This document shows, one piece after another, positions 13,255-23,144 of a stretch of 64,000 nt of DNA. This DNA comes from Saccharothrix syringae. Lineage in GTDB: Bacteria; Actinomycetota; Actinomycetes; Mycobacteriales; Pseudonocardiaceae. The position numbers were made by a program, and so were the translations under genes. The notes under the pieces were generated by a model. That model was not told where the DNA came from and made no database searches. It worked only from the letters and a program-made list of their open reading frames with translations. Every line of letters begins with the position of its first letter. Within the stretch, counting starts at the first letter, position 1. The DNA lies in assembly GCF_009498035.1 (NCBI RefSeq), contig NZ_CP034550.1:2666001-2730000 (forward strand), in the 5' to 3' direction.

Positions 13255-16860
<3,606 letters not shown>

Positions 16861-16885
16861 GCTCAGCCTCCCGTTGAACTTCAGT

Positions 16886-16968
16886 GGGAGGCGCCCTTAC
16901 CTGCGTTGCTCACGACCGAGCGTGGCGGGCTGGTCACCCGTTGCAGCGCCTCTCGACCGCACGGTCGA
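16886..16968 (-). promoter_or_regulatory. Probable S-adenosylhomocysteine (SAH) riboswitch before metH
   Basis: Read on the minus strand, the leader has GAGAGGCGCTGC (16955-16944), then CCACGCTCGG (16924-16915), then GGGCGCC (16896-16890). UCGAG pairs with CUCGG to make P1. GAGGCGC at 16952-16946 pairs with GCGCCTC at 16895-16889 to make the pseudoknot P4. The GCGCUGC and GCUCGG words are those of the SAH class. A small extra hairpin (CGACCG/CGGTCG, 16968-16953) abuts the 5' side. The pseudoknot ends about 13 bp before the GGGAGG ribosome site, consistent with translational control. Consensus recalled from memory. Confidence 0.72.
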
Positions 16969-17020
16969 TGGTAACGCCATCCGCAAATCCGGACACCCCC
17001 TCCCACCCCCTGAGACCCGC

Positions 17021-17164
17021 GTGTCCTCCAGTCCGACACCGCGTGTCCTCCAGTCCGACACCGCGTGTCCTCCAGTCCGACCTGTGGTGCAGGTGCGCGA
17101 GTGAAGGACATGCAGTGCCTGAGCGGAGGACACGCGGTGCCGGAGTGGAGGACTCGCGCGGGTT
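17021..17164. repeat. Mosaic 22-bp repeat array 1, inverted symmetry
   Basis: Three tandem 22-bp units with the core TGTCCTCCAGTCCGACAC start at 17021, 17043 and 17065. A 12-bp centre (17087-17098) follows, and three units in the opposite orientation (core GGAGGACACGCGGTG) start at 17099, 17121 and 17143. The array can fold back on itself. Its last base touches the lutC stop codon (17165-17167). It sits between the end of lutC and the metH leader, so it may act as a terminator or insulator. Single-frame readings of it as protein are artefacts. Confidence 0.85.
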
Positions 17165-17761
17165 TCAGGTGGTGAGGATTACTTCCAGGGTTCGGGGGCC
17201 GTGGACGCCTTCCACGCGTTCCAGTTCGATGTCGCTGGTCGCGGACGGGCCGCTGATCCAGGTCTGGGTGCGCACGTCGGCCAGGGCGGCCACGGCGTCG
17301 GGCACCCCGGCGACCACCTGGGACGCCCGGACCACGACCAGGTGGTAGTCCGGCACGAGGGTCAGCGCGCGCGGGCCCTGGTCGGCGGCGTCGTGGTCCA
17401 GGACGATCGTGCCGGTCTCGGCGATGGCGACGTGGCACGCGGTCAGCACGGCGTCGGCGCGTTCCAGGGTCGCGACGTCCACGGGGGTGCGGGTGGCGTC
17501 GGGGGCCCACTCCGGCGGCGTGCCGGGAGCGGCCACCACCAGGCGCGCACCGCGTTCCCGCAGGGCGGCGGCGACGGCGGCGACCAGGTCGTCGGCCGGT
17601 ACCACGCGGACCCGCGCCCGGTAGTCGCGCAGGCGTTCGGCGAACAGCACCGGGTCACCGGGGCCGCGGGAACCGGCCGCGCGGTAGTCCCGCGGCACGG
17701 GTGCCGCCGCGCTGCCCTTCGCCCGCCGGACCCGCGCCAGCACCTCGTCACGCGCGCTCAT
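17165..17761 (-). CDS. lutC: Lactate utilization protein C (LUD domain)
   Basis: A 198-residue LUD-domain subunit of the LutABC L-lactate oxidation complex (lactate to pyruvate). Typical features are EVLARVRRAKG at the N terminus, then DAVLTACHVAIAETGTIVLDHD, LVPDYHLVVVRASQVV and SGPSATSDIELERVEGVHGPR near the C terminus. The ATG at 17761 overlaps the lutB stop by 4 bases (ATGA). It is the last gene of lutA-lutB-lutC. Its stop codon abuts repeat array 1. Confidence 0.93.
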   Translation of the reverse strand: MSARDEVLARVRRAKGSAAAPVPRDYRAAGSRGPGDPVLFAERLRDYRARVRVVPADDLVAAVAAALRERGARLVVAAPGTPPEWAPDATRTPVDVATLERADAVLTACHVAIAETGTIVLDHDAADQGPRALTLVPDYHLVVVRASQVVAGVPDAVAALADVRTQTWISGPSATSDIELERVEGVHGPRTLEVILTT

Positions 17762-19155
17762 CGCGCCTCCCACCAGTCGCGGAACGTCTGCCGCGGCGGC
17801 TGCGGCACGTCCCGGGCCGTCGACCAGCCCGGCAGCGGCACGTGCCTGCTCGCCGTCCGCCCGAACTTCCCCAGCCGCGCGAACCGCCGCCACCGCCGGG
17901 CGTCCGACATCACCCACGCCAGGGCGCGCATCGCGGTCGACTCCGGCGTCGTCCGCCCCGCCTCGACCACCTTCCCCCGCAGGTGCACCAGCATGGACGG
18001 GATGTCGATCGCCACCGGGCACACGTCGTAGCACACCCCGCACAGCGACGACGCGAACGGCAGCGTCGGGTTCCGCGCCACCCCGGTCAGCTGCGGCGAC
18101 AGCACCGCGCCGATCGGCCCGGGGTACGTCGAGCCGTACGCGTGGCCGCCCGTCCGCTCGTACACCGGGCACGAGTTCAGGCACGCCGAGCAGCGGATGC
18201 ACCGCAGCGCCGCCCGCCCGTCGGGGTCGGCGAGCACCGCCGTGCGGCCGTTGTCCACCAGCACCACGTGGCTGGTCTGCCCCTCGGTCGGCCCGGTCCA
18301 CACCGACGTGTACGGGTTCATCCGCTCCCCGGTGGACGACCGGGGCAGCAGCTGGAGGAACACCTCCAGGTCCCGCCACGTCGGCAGCATCTTCTCGATG
18401 CCCACCACGCTGATCAGCGTGCGCGGCAGCGTCAGGCACATCCGGCCGTTGCCCTCGGACTCCACCACCACCAGCGACCCGGTCTCCGCGATGCCGAAGT
18501 TCGCGCCCGAGATCGCCACGTCCGCGGTCAGGAACTTGCGCCGCAGGTGCTCGCGCGCGGCCTCGGCGAGCGCGCGCGGGTCGGCGGTCAGGTCCGGGTC
18601 CACGTCGGGCATCTCGCGCCGGAAGATCTCCCGGATCTCGGCCCGGCCGCGGTGGATCGCGGGCACCAGGATGTGGCTGGGCCGGTCGTGGCCGAGCTGC
18701 ACGATCAGCTCCGCCAGGTCTGTCTCGACCGCGTGCACGCCCGCCCGCGCCAACGCCTCGTTCAGGCCGATCTCGGCGGTGGCCATGGACTTGACCTTGA
18801 TCACCTCGCGGGTGCCGGTGGCGGTGACCAGGTCGGTGACGATCCGGTTGGCCTCGTCGGCGTCGCGCGCCCAGTGCACGTGGGTGCCGCGCGCGGTCAG
18901 CGCCTCCTCGAACCGCACCAGGTACTCGTCCAGGTTGGCCAGCACGTCGTCCTTGATCGCCGCGCCCGCCGCGCGCAGCGCCGCCCAGTCCGGCAGCTCG
19001 CCCACCACGGTCGCGCGCTTGGCCCGGATCGTGGTGGTGGCCTTGGCCAGGTTGCGGCGCAGCTGGGCGTCGCCGAGGGCCTCGCGCGCGGCCTCGGGGA
19101 ACGGCGCGCCGGTCAGGTTGCCGCGGCCGGCGGGCATGCCCAGGAAGGTGCTCAT
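17758..19155 (-). CDS. lutB: Lactate utilization iron-sulfur protein B
   Basis: A 465-residue iron-sulfur subunit of the LutABC complex. The N-terminal half is a LUD domain (EVIKVKSMATAEIGLNEAL; VVVESEGNGRMCL). The central ferredoxin-like part has two 4Fe-4S motifs: CIRCSACLNSCPVYE and CGVCYDVCPVAIDIP. The C-terminal tail with WSTARDVPQPPRQTFRDWW is usual. I placed the start at ATG 19155 (MSTFLGMPAG), which overlaps the lutA stop as ATGA. Membrane-associated or cytosolic electron transfer is expected. Confidence 0.95.
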   Translation of the reverse strand: MSTFLGMPAGRGNLTGAPFPEAAREALGDAQLRRNLAKATTTIRAKRATVVGELPDWAALRAAGAAIKDDVLANLDEYLVRFEEALTARGTHVHWARDADEANRIVTDLVTATGTREVIKVKSMATAEIGLNEALARAGVHAVETDLAELIVQLGHDRPSHILVPAIHRGRAEIREIFRREMPDVDPDLTADPRALAEAAREHLRRKFLTADVAISGANFGIAETGSLVVVESEGNGRMCLTLPRTLISVVGIEKMLPTWRDLEVFLQLLPRSSTGERMNPYTSVWTGPTEGQTSHVVLVDNGRTAVLADPDGRAALRCIRCSACLNSCPVYERTGGHAYGSTYPGPIGAVLSPQLTGVARNPTLPFASSLCGVCYDVCPVAIDIPSMLVHLRGKVVEAGRTTPESTAMRALAWVMSDARRWRRFARLGKFGRTASRHVPLPGWSTARDVPQPPRQTFRDWWEAR

Positions 19156-19880
19156 CGGGTGTGCTCCAGGACCTGCGCCAGGTGCAGCGGGCGGATGCCG
19201 CTGCGCAGCCTGCTCAGCCCGCCGCCGATGTGCATCAGGCACGACGAGTCGCCCGCGGTGAGCACGCCGGCCCGGGTGCCGATGACGTTGCTCATCTTGT
19301 CGGCGAGCATGGCGGTGGAGGTGTCGGCGTTCTTGAGCGCGAACGTGCCGCCGAAACCGCAGCACGTCTCGGCCGCGGGCAGCTCGACCAGGTCGATGCC
19401 CTCCACGGCCCGCAGCAGCCGCAGCGGCCGGTCGCCCACCTTGAGCACGCGCAGCGAGTGGCACGTCGGGTGGTAGGTGACCCGGTGCGGGAAGTACGCG
19501 CCGACGTCGGTGACGCCCAGGACGTCCACCAGGAGCTCGGACAGCTCGTAGGTGCGCCTCGCGGTGTCCTCGGCGGCCTCGGCGAGCCCGGCGTCACCGT
19601 GCTCGCGGGCGATCGCGGCGTGCTGGTGGCGCACCGAACCCGCGCACGACCCGGACGGCGCGACGACCACGTCCGCGCCCTCGAAGGCCCGCACGTGGTT
19701 GCGCACGATCGGCAGCGCCTGGCCCGCGTAGCCGGTGTTGATGTGCATCTGGCCGCAGCAGGTCTGGGCCGGCGGCACGACCACCTCGTGGCCCAGGCGC
19801 TCCAGCAGCCGGACGGTGGCCTTGCCGACGTCCGGGAACAGGCCGTCGACCAGGCACGTGACGAACAGCGCGACTCTCAC
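19152..19880 (-). CDS. lutA: Lactate utilization protein A (CCG-domain oxidoreductase)
   Basis: A 242-residue first subunit of the LutABC lactate oxidation system, with two cysteine-rich CCG domains. The motifs are CLVDG...CCGQMHINTGYAGQA in the first half and YHPTCHSLR...CCGFGGTFALKN in the second. The GTG start at 19880 (MRVALFVTCLVDG) is the conserved family start. It leads the lut operon and faces a divergent FadR-type regulator across a 70-bp spacer with two operators. Confidence 0.95.
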   Translation of the reverse strand: MRVALFVTCLVDGLFPDVGKATVRLLERLGHEVVVPPAQTCCGQMHINTGYAGQALPIVRNHVRAFEGADVVVAPSGSCAGSVRHQHAAIAREHGDAGLAEAAEDTARRTYELSELLVDVLGVTDVGAYFPHRVTYHPTCHSLRVLKVGDRPLRLLRAVEGIDLVELPAAETCCGFGGTFALKNADTSTAMLADKMSNVIGTRAGVLTAGDSSCLMHIGGGLSRLRSGIRPLHLAQVLEHTR

Positions 19881-19899
19881 GCCTCCGCAGCTTAGACTC

Positions 19900-19936
19900 T
19901 GTGGTCAGACCACACCAGGTATGTGGTCTGACCACA
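19900..19936. promoter_or_regulatory. Twin FadR-type operators controlling lutABC and its regulator
   Basis: TGTGGTCAGACCACA (19900-19914) and TGTGGTCTGACCACA (19922-19936) are two perfect 15-bp palindromes differing only at the centre base. Their centres are 22 bp apart, about two helical turns. The TGGTC-N-GACCA core is the FadR-subfamily GntR signature. They fill the divergent promoter region, which strongly suggests autoregulation plus repression of lut by the adjacent gene product. Confidence 0.85.
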
Positions 19937-19950
19937 GCGGGGAGGCGCGG

Positions 19951-20685
19951 GTGTCCGGGTACGACGCGGTGCTGCGGCACGTGGAGTCGGAGCTGACCGC
20001 GGGCAGGCTGGGCGTGGGGGAGCAGCTGCCCGCCGAGCGGCGGCTGGCCGAGGAGCTGGGCGTGAGCCGGGCGACCGTGCGCGAGGCGATCCGGGTGCTC
20101 CAGGCGATGGGCGTGGTGCGCAGCGGCGTCGGGTCCGGGCCCGACGCGGGGACGACGGTGATCGCCGATCCCGCGGGCGGCCTCGGCGCGGCGCTGCGGC
20201 TGCACCTGGCCACGCGGCGGCTGCCGATGGCGGACCTGGTCGACACCAGGGTGATGGTCGAGAGCCACTCGGTGCGCGCCGCCGCCCGGACGCCCGACCA
20301 CCCCGAGCTGGCCCGCGCCGCCGACCTGCTGGCGCGCATGGAGGCGCCGGACCTCGACGCCGACGCGTTCCACCAGCTCGACGCGGACTTCCACGTGGCC
20401 CTCACGGCGGCGGCGGGCAACGCGGTGAACACCGCGGTCATGGCGGCGCTGCGGGACGCGATCCACCGGACCGTGACGGACGCGGTGCGGGCCTTGCCCG
20501 ACTGGTCGCGCACCGCGGTCCGGCTGCGCCGCGAGCACCGGGGCATCCTGCGCGCCGTGCGGGAGGGCGACGCCGAGCTGGCGGCGACCCGGGTGACCCG
20601 CCACGTGCGCGGCTTCCACCGCGAGTGGGCCCGGCACGCGAACGTGGAACTCACCGGCCCCGAACGTTCGACACGACGGCCCTGA
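19951..20685 (+). CDS. GntR/FadR-family regulator of the lactate operon
   Basis: A 244-residue regulator, probably the lactate-responsive repressor of lutABC (LldR/LutR-like). The N-terminal winged helix reads GEQLPAERRLAEELGVSRATVREAIRVLQAMGVV. The C-terminal all-helical FCD domain keeps probable metal-binding positions (RVMVESHSVRAAAR; QLDADFHVALTAAAGN; REHRGILRAVREGD). The GTG at 19951 is chosen for the GGGGAGG 6 bp before it. The last residues (PERSTRRP) and the stop codon are encoded by the first two units of repeat array 2, so the native C terminus seems to have been replaced or extended. Confidence 0.9.
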   Translation: MSGYDAVLRHVESELTAGRLGVGEQLPAERRLAEELGVSRATVREAIRVLQAMGVVRSGVGSGPDAGTTVIADPAGGLGAALRLHLATRRLPMADLVDTRVMVESHSVRAAARTPDHPELARAADLLARMEAPDLDADAFHQLDADFHVALTAAAGNAVNTAVMAALRDAIHRTVTDAVRALPDWSRTAVRLRREHRGILRAVREGDAELAATRVTRHVRGFHREWARHANVELTGPERSTRRP

Positions 20686-21008
20686 ACGTTCGACTCGCGC
20701 GGCTTGAACGCATGACACGCCCGGCTTGAACGCATGACTCGCGCGGTTTGAACGCATGACACGCCGGGTGGGAGCGCTTTCACCGCGCGTGTCCTCCAGT
20801 CGGACACCGCGTGTCCTCCGGTCCGGCACCGCGTGTCATGCGTTCAGGCACCGCGTGTCATGCGTTCAGGCACCGCGAGTCGAACGTTCGGGACCGTCGT
20901 GTCGAACGTTCAGGAGTGGTGAGTTCTGCGTTCGTGGTGTCCGAGTGGAGGACTTGCGGTGTCCGGGTGGAGGACACGCGGTGTTGGAGTGGAGGACACG
21001 CGCGGGGG
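20661..21008. repeat. Mosaic 22-bp repeat array 2 with three interchangeable cores
   Basis: Five direct units begin at 20661, 20683, 20705, 20727 and 20749. After an 18-bp centre, ten units in the opposite sense begin at 20789 and step by exactly 22 bp to 20987. The constant part is ACACGCGG or its complement. The variable part is one of several words: CGAACGTTCG, TGAACGCATG, or GGAGGA/TCCTCC, plus one variant with TTCTGCGTTC. Word order is roughly mirrored, so a long cruciform or hairpin is possible. The array lies between two convergent genes (the GntR regulator and DoxX) and overlaps the end of the first. Confidence 0.9.
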
Positions 21009-21015
21009 CGGTGGG

Positions 21016-21035
21016 CCGGTCCCCGGGAGGACCGG
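21016..21035 (-). terminator. Short hairpin after the DoxX gene
   Basis: CCGGTCC and GGACCGG form a 7-bp stem with a 6-base loop, 20 bp beyond the DoxX stop. It is flanked by further G/C complementarity. This is a modest terminator candidate for the peroxidase-DoxX unit. Confidence 0.5.
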
Positions 21036-21054
21036 GGGCCGGCGCACCGCGTGG

Positions 21055-21492
21055 TCAGCTCGTCCGGGTGGTGGTCCGGCCCAGGAGGACCAGGACCGCG
21101 CAGACGAGCACCACGTTCTTCAGGACGAATTCGCCGTTGGTGGTGAGCAGGAGGGGGTTGCCGTGGAAGATCACCAGGGTCGGCGCCTGGACGAAGACCA
21201 GGAAGGTCCCGACCAGGTGGACCGCCGCGACGACCAGCGTCAGCCGCGGCAGCCACCCGAGCAGCAGCACCAGCCCCAGCACGACCTCGAACCAGCCGAG
21301 GGCGGGTACCAGGAACCCCGGGTCCACCCACGGCACGGCCGCCTCCACCAGCTCCGCCACCGGCGAGGCGCCGGTGACCTTGAGCGCGCCGAACCAGAGG
21401 AACACCACGGCGATCGACCACCGCAGGGCGGGAGCGGCCCAGCGGTCGAGCCGCTCCCGCGGGGTGGTCCGCTCGACCGAGCGGGTCGCCAC
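21055..21492 (-). CDS. DoxX-family membrane protein
   Basis: A 145-residue four-helix membrane protein of the DoxX/DoxD-like family. Helices lie at about 24-44 (with RWSIAVVFLWFGALKVTG), 60-80, 85-105 and 122-140. The insertion with FVQAPTLVIFHGNPLLLTTNGEFVLKN is typical of the group. The GTG at 21492 lies 2 bp beyond the stop of the haem peroxidase gene, so the two are one transcription unit. DoxX proteins act in respiratory or redox-stress membrane complexes; a quinone-linked partnership with the peroxidase is inference. Confidence 0.88.
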   Translation of the reverse strand: MATRSVERTTPRERLDRWAAPALRWSIAVVFLWFGALKVTGASPVAELVEAAVPWVDPGFLVPALGWFEVVLGLVLLLGWLPRLTLVVAAVHLVGTFLVFVQAPTLVIFHGNPLLLTTNGEFVLKNVVLVCAVLVLLGRTTTRTS

Positions 21493-21494
21493 GC

Positions 21495-23144
21495 TCAGTC
21501 CCCGAGGGGGTTGAGCAGGTCCGCCTTGCCCTCGAAGGCGAACAGGAGCAGGTCGGTCATCCGGAACGTCCGGTCGTCCGGGCCGAACGTCGGCCGCCAC
21601 GAGGGCTGGCGCACGATCGAGGTGCGGCTGCCCTCGATCGACCGGTGGAACGTCTCGGCCACGATCCGGCCGCCCACCGGCCCGAGCAGGCCGTTGTTGG
21701 CCTCGGCCTCGCGCAGCACGTAGAACCACAGCGGGGTCGCGGCGGTCACCGCGTCCTTCTGCGCGTCGGTGAGCCCGTCGAGCACGGCGCCACCGTTGCC
21801 CACGAGGATCTGCTCGGCGGTCAGCGGTGGCACGCCGAACAGCTCCGCCATCTGCTGCCCGGAGGCCAGGCGGACCATGCCCGCCCGGGTCAGGTTGCGG
21901 AAGGCGAGGTTGCGCTGGATCTCGGTGAACTCGGTGCCGCGCCCGCCGAACGTGCCCGCCGGCAGCTGCGCCAGCGGGTCCACCAGCAGGGAGTCGATCC
22001 GCTTGGTCACGTTGCCGCCGTTCGGCGTCGGCGGCACCAGGTCCGGCCGGTCGACCTCGGTGAAGTCGTACAGCCTGCGGAAGTCGGCGATCCAGTTGGT
22101 GGGCAGCACGTCCACCGTGCCGGAGTTCGGGTCGTCCAGGTCCGGCAGCGTCGAGCCCGGGTCGAAGTTGCCCGAGGTCCCGGTGAACACGAACAGCAGG
22201 AACAGCGTGGCGATCCCGCCGGGGCCGTTGGTGTTGAACACCCGGTTCCACTGGTAGGCGCCCCGGACCTGGCTGTGCCCCAACCGGTACGCGGCCACCG
22301 AGAACTCCAGCGGCATCGTGGGGCGCAGCCCCCGGCCGGGCGCCTCGAAGAAGCGCCTGCCGTTGGTGAACACGTCGTCCACGATGGCCGGGTCGACGAT
22401 CCGCGGCAGGAAGTCGTGCCGCAGCATCCACTGGTAGTGGCGCACGACCTCCTCGCGCGCCGCGGTGAACAGCCGCCGCCCGCTCAGGCCGCGCAGCGCC
22501 AGCTCGTCCACCACCCGGTTGTGGAACCTGATGAACGCCAGGTGCGTCTGGGCGACCACCAGGTTCTCGTCGTTGCGGGTGTCGGGGATCAGCGGTCGCC
22601 GCCGGTCGGCGCCCGTCGCGCCCGCCGCGCCGAACCGCGGCAGGTCGAACCCCTCCAGCGACACGTTGGTCCGCTCGTCGGGGAACGCGACGGGCGCGGT
22701 GGCGCCCACCTTGAGCTTGACCCCGTCGGCGGCGTAGAAAGCCCGGTCGTTGGGGTCGCCCGGCCCCCGCCCGTACACCGAGTCCAGGTCCAGCGCCGGC
22801 GACCGGCCCTGCACCAGGTCGTCGAGGTTGACGTCCTGCCCCAGCTGCGACTCGGTGCGGTCCATGGTCAGGTCGTGGTCGACGAACTGGCCGAGGTAGG
22901 TGAAGCCCGCCGGGATCGGCGGATTCGCGGAGTCCGGCTGCGGACCCGCCGCGGTCATGGCGGTGGCGAGGGCGATCCGGGTCTCCTCGTCGAGCGGGGT
23001 CCCCTCCGGCCCCAGGCGCGAGAAGCGGAACCGGCGCAACTCCTCCACCGTCATCGGTTGGCGCACGGTAGCCACCCCCGTGCGGTCGAACTCCAGCACT
23101 CCTTCGCCCACGACGAAGAAGCTGCTGGTGCCGTGCTTTCTCAT
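21495..23144 (-). CDS. Animal-type (peroxidase-cyclooxygenase superfamily) haem peroxidase
   Basis: A 549-residue haem peroxidase. The active-site pieces are all present: GQFVDHD with distal His90 and Gln86, PDTRNDE with distal Arg190, and the proximal helix AYRLGHSQV with His290. The HNRVVDEL stretch after the Arg is also standard. No signal peptide is seen (MRKHGTSSFFVVGEG), so the protein seems cytosolic unless bound to its DoxX partner. The length suits a minimal catalytic domain. The substrate (halide, phenol or lipid) cannot be read. The family is uncommon in bacteria and often acquired by transfer, but base composition here matches the neighbours. Confidence 0.93.
   Translation of the reverse strand: MRKHGTSSFFVVGEGVLEFDRTGVATVRQPMTVEELRRFRFSRLGPEGTPLDEETRIALATAMTAAGPQPDSANPPIPAGFTYLGQFVDHDLTMDRTESQLGQDVNLDDLVQGRSPALDLDSVYGRGPGDPNDRAFYAADGVKLKVGATAPVAFPDERTNVSLEGFDLPRFGAAGATGADRRRPLIPDTRNDENLVVAQTHLAFIRFHNRVVDELALRGLSGRRLFTAAREEVVRHYQWMLRHDFLPRIVDPAIVDDVFTNGRRFFEAPGRGLRPTMPLEFSVAAYRLGHSQVRGAYQWNRVFNTNGPGGIATLFLLFVFTGTSGNFDPGSTLPDLDDPNSGTVDVLPTNWIADFRRLYDFTEVDRPDLVPPTPNGGNVTKRIDSLLVDPLAQLPAGTFGGRGTEFTEIQRNLAFRNLTRAGMVRLASGQQMAELFGVPPLTAEQILVGNGGAVLDGLTDAQKDAVTAATPLWFYVLREAEANNGLLGPVGGRIVAETFHRSIEGSRTSIVRQPSWRPTFGPDDRTFRMTDLLLFAFEGKADLLNPLGD

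Follow-up and report, generated by a model that had tools for sequence, protein, structure and literature searches.

REP/BIME elements, in the passages of PMC2817692 drawn on here, are dispersed extragenic repeats that occur in more than 100 copies and have a species-specific sequence, with several copies at a given location that are frequently inverted relative to one another. Prokaryotic satellites, for example those of Chloroflexus aurantiacus, are characterized in an excerpt of PMC6749651 as scattered tandem repeats in mostly species-specific families. The DNA uptake sequences of the Neisseriaceae are short dispersed dialect words, which, according to the cited portion of PMC3630211, are thought to follow the protein that recognizes them. 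Intrinsic terminators of the hairpin-cluster type, as presented in part of PMC8355165, lie mostly <20 nt from the stop codon and have no U tract. CRISPR arrays consist of constant repeats and unique spacers. In eukaryotes, rDNA terminator-box arrays (TTF-I/Sal box) are tandem, species-specific protein sites that lie behind genes at one locus and roadblock the polymerase.

The window analyzed here is a stretch of 64,000 nucleotides, positions 2,666,001 to 2,730,000 of the 10,929,570-bp single-contig genome of Saccharothrix syringae. The gap between a regulator gene and a DoxX gene in this window carries an array of 22-bp units, one of many in the genome, which can be classed broadly as dispersed intergenic tandem repeats. 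Nothing on these arrays was found in the open full-text literature searched, and the matched excerpts of Pseudonocardiaceae genome papers contain no such repeat among the term matches. The arrays have a distinct end unit, ordered 22-bp blocks, placement at gene 3′ ends, a place and a compatible orientation that are retained in the genus, and species-typical words. The array in the window is a candidate gene-end boundary element (terminator or insulator), one of many in this bacterium and its family, a tentative reading with a probability of about 0.4.

Like REP/BIME elements, the arrays are extragenic and abundant, with 342 tandem junctions genome-wide and 75 of 78 mapped arrays lying outside any called gene. 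However, REP/BIME units are imperfect palindromes that form stem-loops and start with a GTAG-type tetranucleotide at the 5′ end, whereas the array unit is not palindromic, its matrix starts with GCGWGTC, and direct arrays show no fold beyond that of shuffled sequences. The strict tandem 22-bp step, the ordered unit types, and the retained gene-end positions are further differences. The RAYT (Y1) transposase (PF01797) was not detected in the own genome and was present in 1 of the 16 array-rich genomes searched and in 2 of 14 others; a RAYT-driven REP family was rejected because the own genome has no Y1 transposase. The missing RAYT and the missing fold of direct arrays thus argue against membership in REP/BIME and against a pure hairpin terminator. 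The arrays resemble prokaryotic satellites as related tandem repeats scattered in a genome (56 arrays in 1.25 Mb of tiles, partly chosen for arrays) but differ in their family-wide frame, anchoring near stops, and orthologous retention. The resemblance to uptake-sequence dialects is limited to species-typical wording, since uptake sequences are single 10- to 12-mers used for transformation and the arrays consist of 22-bp units repeated in tandem at the ends of genes. Proximity to stop codons is shared with hairpin-cluster terminators (of the 53 own arrays flanked by a stop, 37 overlap it or are no more than 12 nt away), but hairpins are found in 33 inverted arrays and in none of 43 direct arrays, and the unit sequence is common across the genome. 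The rDNA terminator boxes are comparable in principle to the roadblock proposed below, whereas the arrays here are bacterial, occupy many loci, and have a putative protein reader. Unlike CRISPR spacers, the cores recur across the genome, and no CRISPR family matched window positions 16500 to 21500 at an E value of ≤1. Carriage on a phage or plasmid was also rejected, with no match at an E value of ≤1e-5 (low-complexity filter on).

Architecture of the array in the window

A preliminary description had reported 15 units in two opposed blocks starting at position 20661. The repeat array at the regulator/DoxX gap is real, but it comprises 16 units in three blocks at positions 20633 to 21001, and position 20661 lies inside the second unit. 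The blocks contain six reverse, seven forward, and three reverse units (<<<<<<, >>>>>>>, <<<). According to the unit table, block 1 (20633 to 20764, minus strand) consists, from left to right, of an end unit, GAGTT-CCACGTTC, two GAACGTTC units, and three ATGCGTTC units. Block 2 (20787 to 20940, plus strand) has two CTCC, two ATGC, and two GAAC units followed by an end unit, GAGTT-CTGCGTTC, and block 3 (20936 to 21001, minus strand) has three units of the CTCC type. The core words named earlier, CTCC.., ATGC.., and the self-palindrome GAACGTTC, were all recovered, and the array carries the end-unit words CCACGTTC and CTGCGTTC in addition. The 22 nt between blocks 1 and 2 (20765 to 20786) contain a 16-bp imperfect palindrome, GTGGGAGCGCTTTCAC, a motif found four times in 850 kb and each time in the center of an array. 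The palindrome GTGRRAGCGCTYYCAC at these positions, which we take to be reminiscent of LacI-type operators, lies at the center of '<>' arrays, and its four occurrences in 850 kb are all in array centers. No named RNA family matched the array (20633 to 21001) at an E value of ≤1.

The GntR/FCD (FadR-type) regulator gene (19921 to 20685, plus strand; Pfam GntR and FCD) has its last codons and its TGA stop inside block 1. It terminates within a unit, and its product has a C terminus 10 to 14 residues longer than those of five congeners. An ordinary GC-rich hairpin, computed by folding, lies at 21018 to 21046 between the array and the convergent DoxX-family gene (21055 to 21492, minus strand; Pfam DoxX). 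A second array (17019 to 17157), with three plus and three minus units of CTCC/CTTC words, lies 7 nt behind the stop of a lutC-like LUD-domain gene (17165 to 17761, minus strand; Pfam LUD_dom). A subthreshold match to the SAH riboswitch (30.2 bits; gathering score, 37) was seen at 16883 to 16960 on the minus strand, just upstream of a methionine synthase gene.

Unit, step, and unit order across the genome

The 342 junctions, found with one tandem pattern allowing up to two mismatches, compare with 6 for the reversed control. Arrays of at least three units numbered 13 and 12 in stretches of 450 and 400 kb, for which the chance controls gave 4 arrays in 20 Markov shuffles and 0 and 1 in reversed sequences. 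The strict 22-bp step proposed in the preliminary description holds in 339 of 344 same-strand steps of the 56 own arrays and in 92 of 94 cases in three relatives, and in some other genera the matches are spaced by 21. The unit matrix, derived from 850 kb, reads G-C-G-(A/T)-G-T-C, followed by a 4-position stretch with C as its last letter, another of 4 positions whose last two are mostly TC, and a looser tail; the conservation of this frame is partly by construction because frame positions enter the score of the unit matcher.

Read on the GCGWGTC strand, a block usually has T:ATGC or T:CTCC units first, then A:GAAC, T:GAAC, and finally the GAGTT end unit, which is sometimes trailed by further CTCC units. 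Among the 76 own blocks with three or more units, the seventh position is T in the last unit of 42 and in the preceding unit of 5. The end unit was also seen in congeners. It is rarer in other genera (absent from the 8 arrays of genome G059, with units in 2 of 9 arrays of G173) and occurs in some arrays at their HPPD loci. The word order, initially described as roughly mirrored in the window, is mirrored genome-wide, with a core similarity between mirrored units of 0.683 versus 0.527 for random within-array pairing (0 of 2,000 permutations). Mirrored units were also more alike than same-rank units of other arrays (0.689 versus 0.519, P = 0.0075, 12 arrays; second set, 0.678 versus 0.484, 0 of 2,000, 13 arrays). 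Core similarity is 0.68 for adjacent units and 0.40 for units of different arrays, which means that neighbors are near copies.

Genome G048 has an array of 8 units and one of 7 whose cores match the frame after a shift of register (CCG..) and may represent a variant unit. The 61 exact-pattern clusters are unevenly spread on the own chromosome, with none at 3 to 4 and 6 to 7 Mb and one at 5 to 6 Mb (chi-square, 27.5; 11 bins). A strict polarity by replication strand was rejected: plus-only and minus-only clusters number 24 and 2 at 0 to 4.8 Mb, 9 and 15 at 7 to 10.2 Mb, and 6 and 0 beyond, with dnaA at 1.4 kb, which is not a clean pattern.

Placement behind genes

Genes were called with our own codon-usage script. 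The 78 mapped arrays include 56 from the own genome, 28 in two even tiles and 28 in stretches picked for containing arrays, and 22 from G059, G173, and G115, for which stretches were fetched for their arrays. The 37 own arrays at or near stops compare with 18.8 expected from random placement in the same gaps. Array ends facing a gene in the sense orientation begin 3 to 9 nt past the stop in 28 of 45 cases, with TGA, TAA, or TAG as the stop, and at the 39 antisense-facing ends the stop is often overlapped. Several ends lie 45 to 65 nt from the stop, with an ordinary hairpin intervening as judged by eye. Of the 28 arrays in the even tiles, 12 lie in convergent gaps, which make up 106 of all 537 gaps (P = 0.007), and 2 lie in divergent gaps (129 of 537; P = 0.04); the remaining 14 are codirectional. 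Direct arrays face neighboring genes in both orientations.

Folding and hairpins

Folding was computed for 76 arrays, with two longer arrays omitted. The direct arrays (n = 43) show no fold beyond that of shuffles, with mean z scores of -1.27 and -0.68 on the two strands, whereas the inverted arrays (n = 33) fold strongly (-12.6 and -11.8) because of their inversion; the z score of the array in the window is -11.8. Unit-level RNA hairpins were thus ruled out for direct arrays.

In the metB gap, 6 of the 8 genomes without an array have a hairpin of ≤-18 kcal/mol, as do 5 of the 13 with one when only sequence outside the array is considered. Only two of the own convergent gaps of >45 nt without an array are without a hairpin. 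The contrast within the own genome is not significant (hairpins in 5 of 12 gaps with an array and 62 of 117 without; P = 0.55), and that across species (medians of -12.9 versus -29.8; P = 0.002) is confounded because the array hides sequence. Intact hairpins stand alongside arrays at two sites and at the regulator/DoxX gap of the window.

Occurrence and retention in relatives

A stricter pattern matched in 57 of 150 genomes and 24 of 46 genera of the family (reversed control, 4 of 150), with 10 or more matches in 24 genomes of 13 genera, as counted from the table. Outside the family, single matches in 6 genomes of an order sample (n = 298; control, 3) and matches in 5 genomes besides the own of a class sample (n = 246; control, 6) are at the control level.

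Retention was followed at six gene-end sites in two loci, picked because the own genome has arrays there, in genomes with both flanking orthologues; the own genome is included, and the congeners include Saccharothrix deserti, S. carnea, S. tamanrassetensis, and S. obliqua. Arrays are present in 13 of 21, 12 of 20, 4 of 21, 7 of 15, 10 of 21, and 6 of 19 genomes of the genus at these sites. The orientation of the arms is compatible across genomes at each site, with seven arrays lacking one arm and one having an extra block. At one site, the stops are ≤5 nt apart or overlap in 4 of the 8 genomes without an array, which indicates that the array there is a clean extra piece. An array lies behind the same regulator gene in G013, G153, G417, and G002, and the gap to DoxX in G415, G007, G008, and G015 has the hairpin alone, as judged by comparing sequences by eye. 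Behind lutC, no units were found in 20 congeners.

Arrays are absent from many species, some of which are sisters of array-bearing ones. In a FastTree phylogeny of four proteins, given without support values, the array-free Saccharothrix species group together, and G093, with no matches, is paired with G059, with 160. Sharing of the same sites across genera was rejected: a looser matcher gave 6 array calls in 5 of 18 HPPD loci of other genera, one in a shared gap but in the opposite orientation (G058) and one 80 nt from the stop of the same gene (G156). Site retention is therefore a within-genus result.

Species-typical core words

The middle units carry mostly CAAC in G153, GAAC in G115, and CTCC, GAAC, and ATGC in the own genome; CTAC prevails in G001, G003, G005, G008, G013, and G417, and the words are mixed in G414 and G015. 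Word similarity within a species across sites is 0.629 versus 0.569 when species are permuted within sites (0 of 500), a moderate effect because CTAC is common to many species. Similarity at one site between species (0.563) equals the background (0.565), and the end units behave alike (0.712, 0.614, and 0.637). The array stays with its site and its words do not. Arrays kept at gene ends with species-typical words indicate that words are replaced in place.

This bears on the early suggestion that cassettes swap or spread as units. In its favor, units next to each other are close copies, and in the own genome the long arrays of one class, near-identical in sequence, adjoin copies of a palindrome of about 165 bp; within the genus, however, arrays hold the same gene ends and the words alone differ, as expected of in-place replacement. 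Unit turnover, whose absence would have counted against that suggestion, is seen as words that differ between species, species rather than strains having been compared.

The palindrome, F1, is imperfect, has TTTGACATG-type ends, and is found, for example, at genome positions 273360 to 273535 (L099:8360-8535). It is present in 13 of 25 genomes of the genus, one of them weakly, and was found in none of nine others (G006, G012, G009, G004, G416, G014, G010, G011, and G017). F1 as a general mobilizer was rejected, since just 2 of the 16 copies retrieved from other species adjoin arrays. MicroRNA matches on the second array and on F1 were below the gathering scores and probably reflect long palindromes. 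A second repeated flank, F2, of about 225 bp, precedes long direct arrays (upstream flanks at genome positions 2313517, 2371812, and 10396810), and its copies at 2313517 and 2371812 are 98.7% identical.

Alternative explanations

The main and serious rival, which is possible, is a near-neutral or selfish dispersed satellite, in which units duplicate locally and are homogenized by gene conversion or copied with small palindromic elements. Units would survive where no coding sequence is broken and would therefore accumulate behind stop codons. The near-copy neighbors, the variable unit number, the regulator gene end that runs into the array, and the patchy presence (0 versus 160 matches in the grouped pair G093/G059) all fit this account, as does the adjacency of long arrays to F1, seen in the own genome at 7 aligned loci and at 3 of 4 additional copies. 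An ordered grammar with an end unit, stop proximity above that of random placement in the same gaps, and retention across species in a compatible orientation are, however, not expected of decaying junk, and the lack of a Y1 transposase in the own genome also speaks against it.

It is unlikely that the arrays act mainly on the transcript, as an RNA-level terminator or 3′-untranslated-region element built on inverted-array hairpins or C-rich Rho-loading sites. The strong folding of the 33 inverted arrays and of the array in the window and the higher-than-chance likeness of mirrored units are consistent with such an element, but 43 of the 76 folded arrays are direct and unstructured, and the fold of the others follows from inversion. 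C exceeds G on the unit strand of the own genome (38% versus 30%), but this excess is slight, for which reason a Rho site was rejected as a general explanation, and the direct arrays occur in either orientation relative to the genes. A chromosome-topology site between converging transcription units, for gyrase or a nucleoid protein for example, as proposed for BIMEs, is very improbable: enrichment between convergent genes, two-turn phasing, and the binding of BIME-2 by gyrase (a passage of PMC2817692) agree with it, but 14 of 28 tile arrays are codirectional, and such a site would presumably need neither species-typical words nor an end unit.

Proposed function

As a gene-end boundary element, the array would restrict transcription out of the gene, terminating or insulating it where other genes rely on a hairpin in the gap. 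Such a role at transcription ends is suggested by the place of the arrays, their retention, and their partial complementarity with hairpins. Because direct arrays fold no better than shuffled RNA and lie in both orientations to genes, a double-stranded site is the simplest shared property, and the reader is likely a DNA-binding protein. This putative protein may bind the two-turn-phased units on DNA and stall RNA polymerase as a roadblock, and inverted arrays may contribute a hairpin as well. The constant frame, the two-turn step, and the unstructured direct arrays are compatible with the early idea of putative sites for several related DNA-binding proteins. Word and factor could coevolve and so give rise to species dialects. 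A broader and rather doubtful proposal is that Pseudonocardiaceae-type actinomycetes end many transcription units with two-turn-phased arrays for a putative DNA-binding factor that is dedicated to termination or insulation and has a recognition word that drifts between species, each species having rewritten the cores in place ("dialect" terminators).

If functional, the arrays would represent a factor-dependent way of ending or insulating transcription, and many gene ends in antibiotic producers among the actinomycetes would bear an element that is absent from the open literature searched. They are also a natural case of dispersed sites that remain in place as their words are rewritten from one species to the next. 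The existence of close relatives with and without arrays may make the responsible factor findable.
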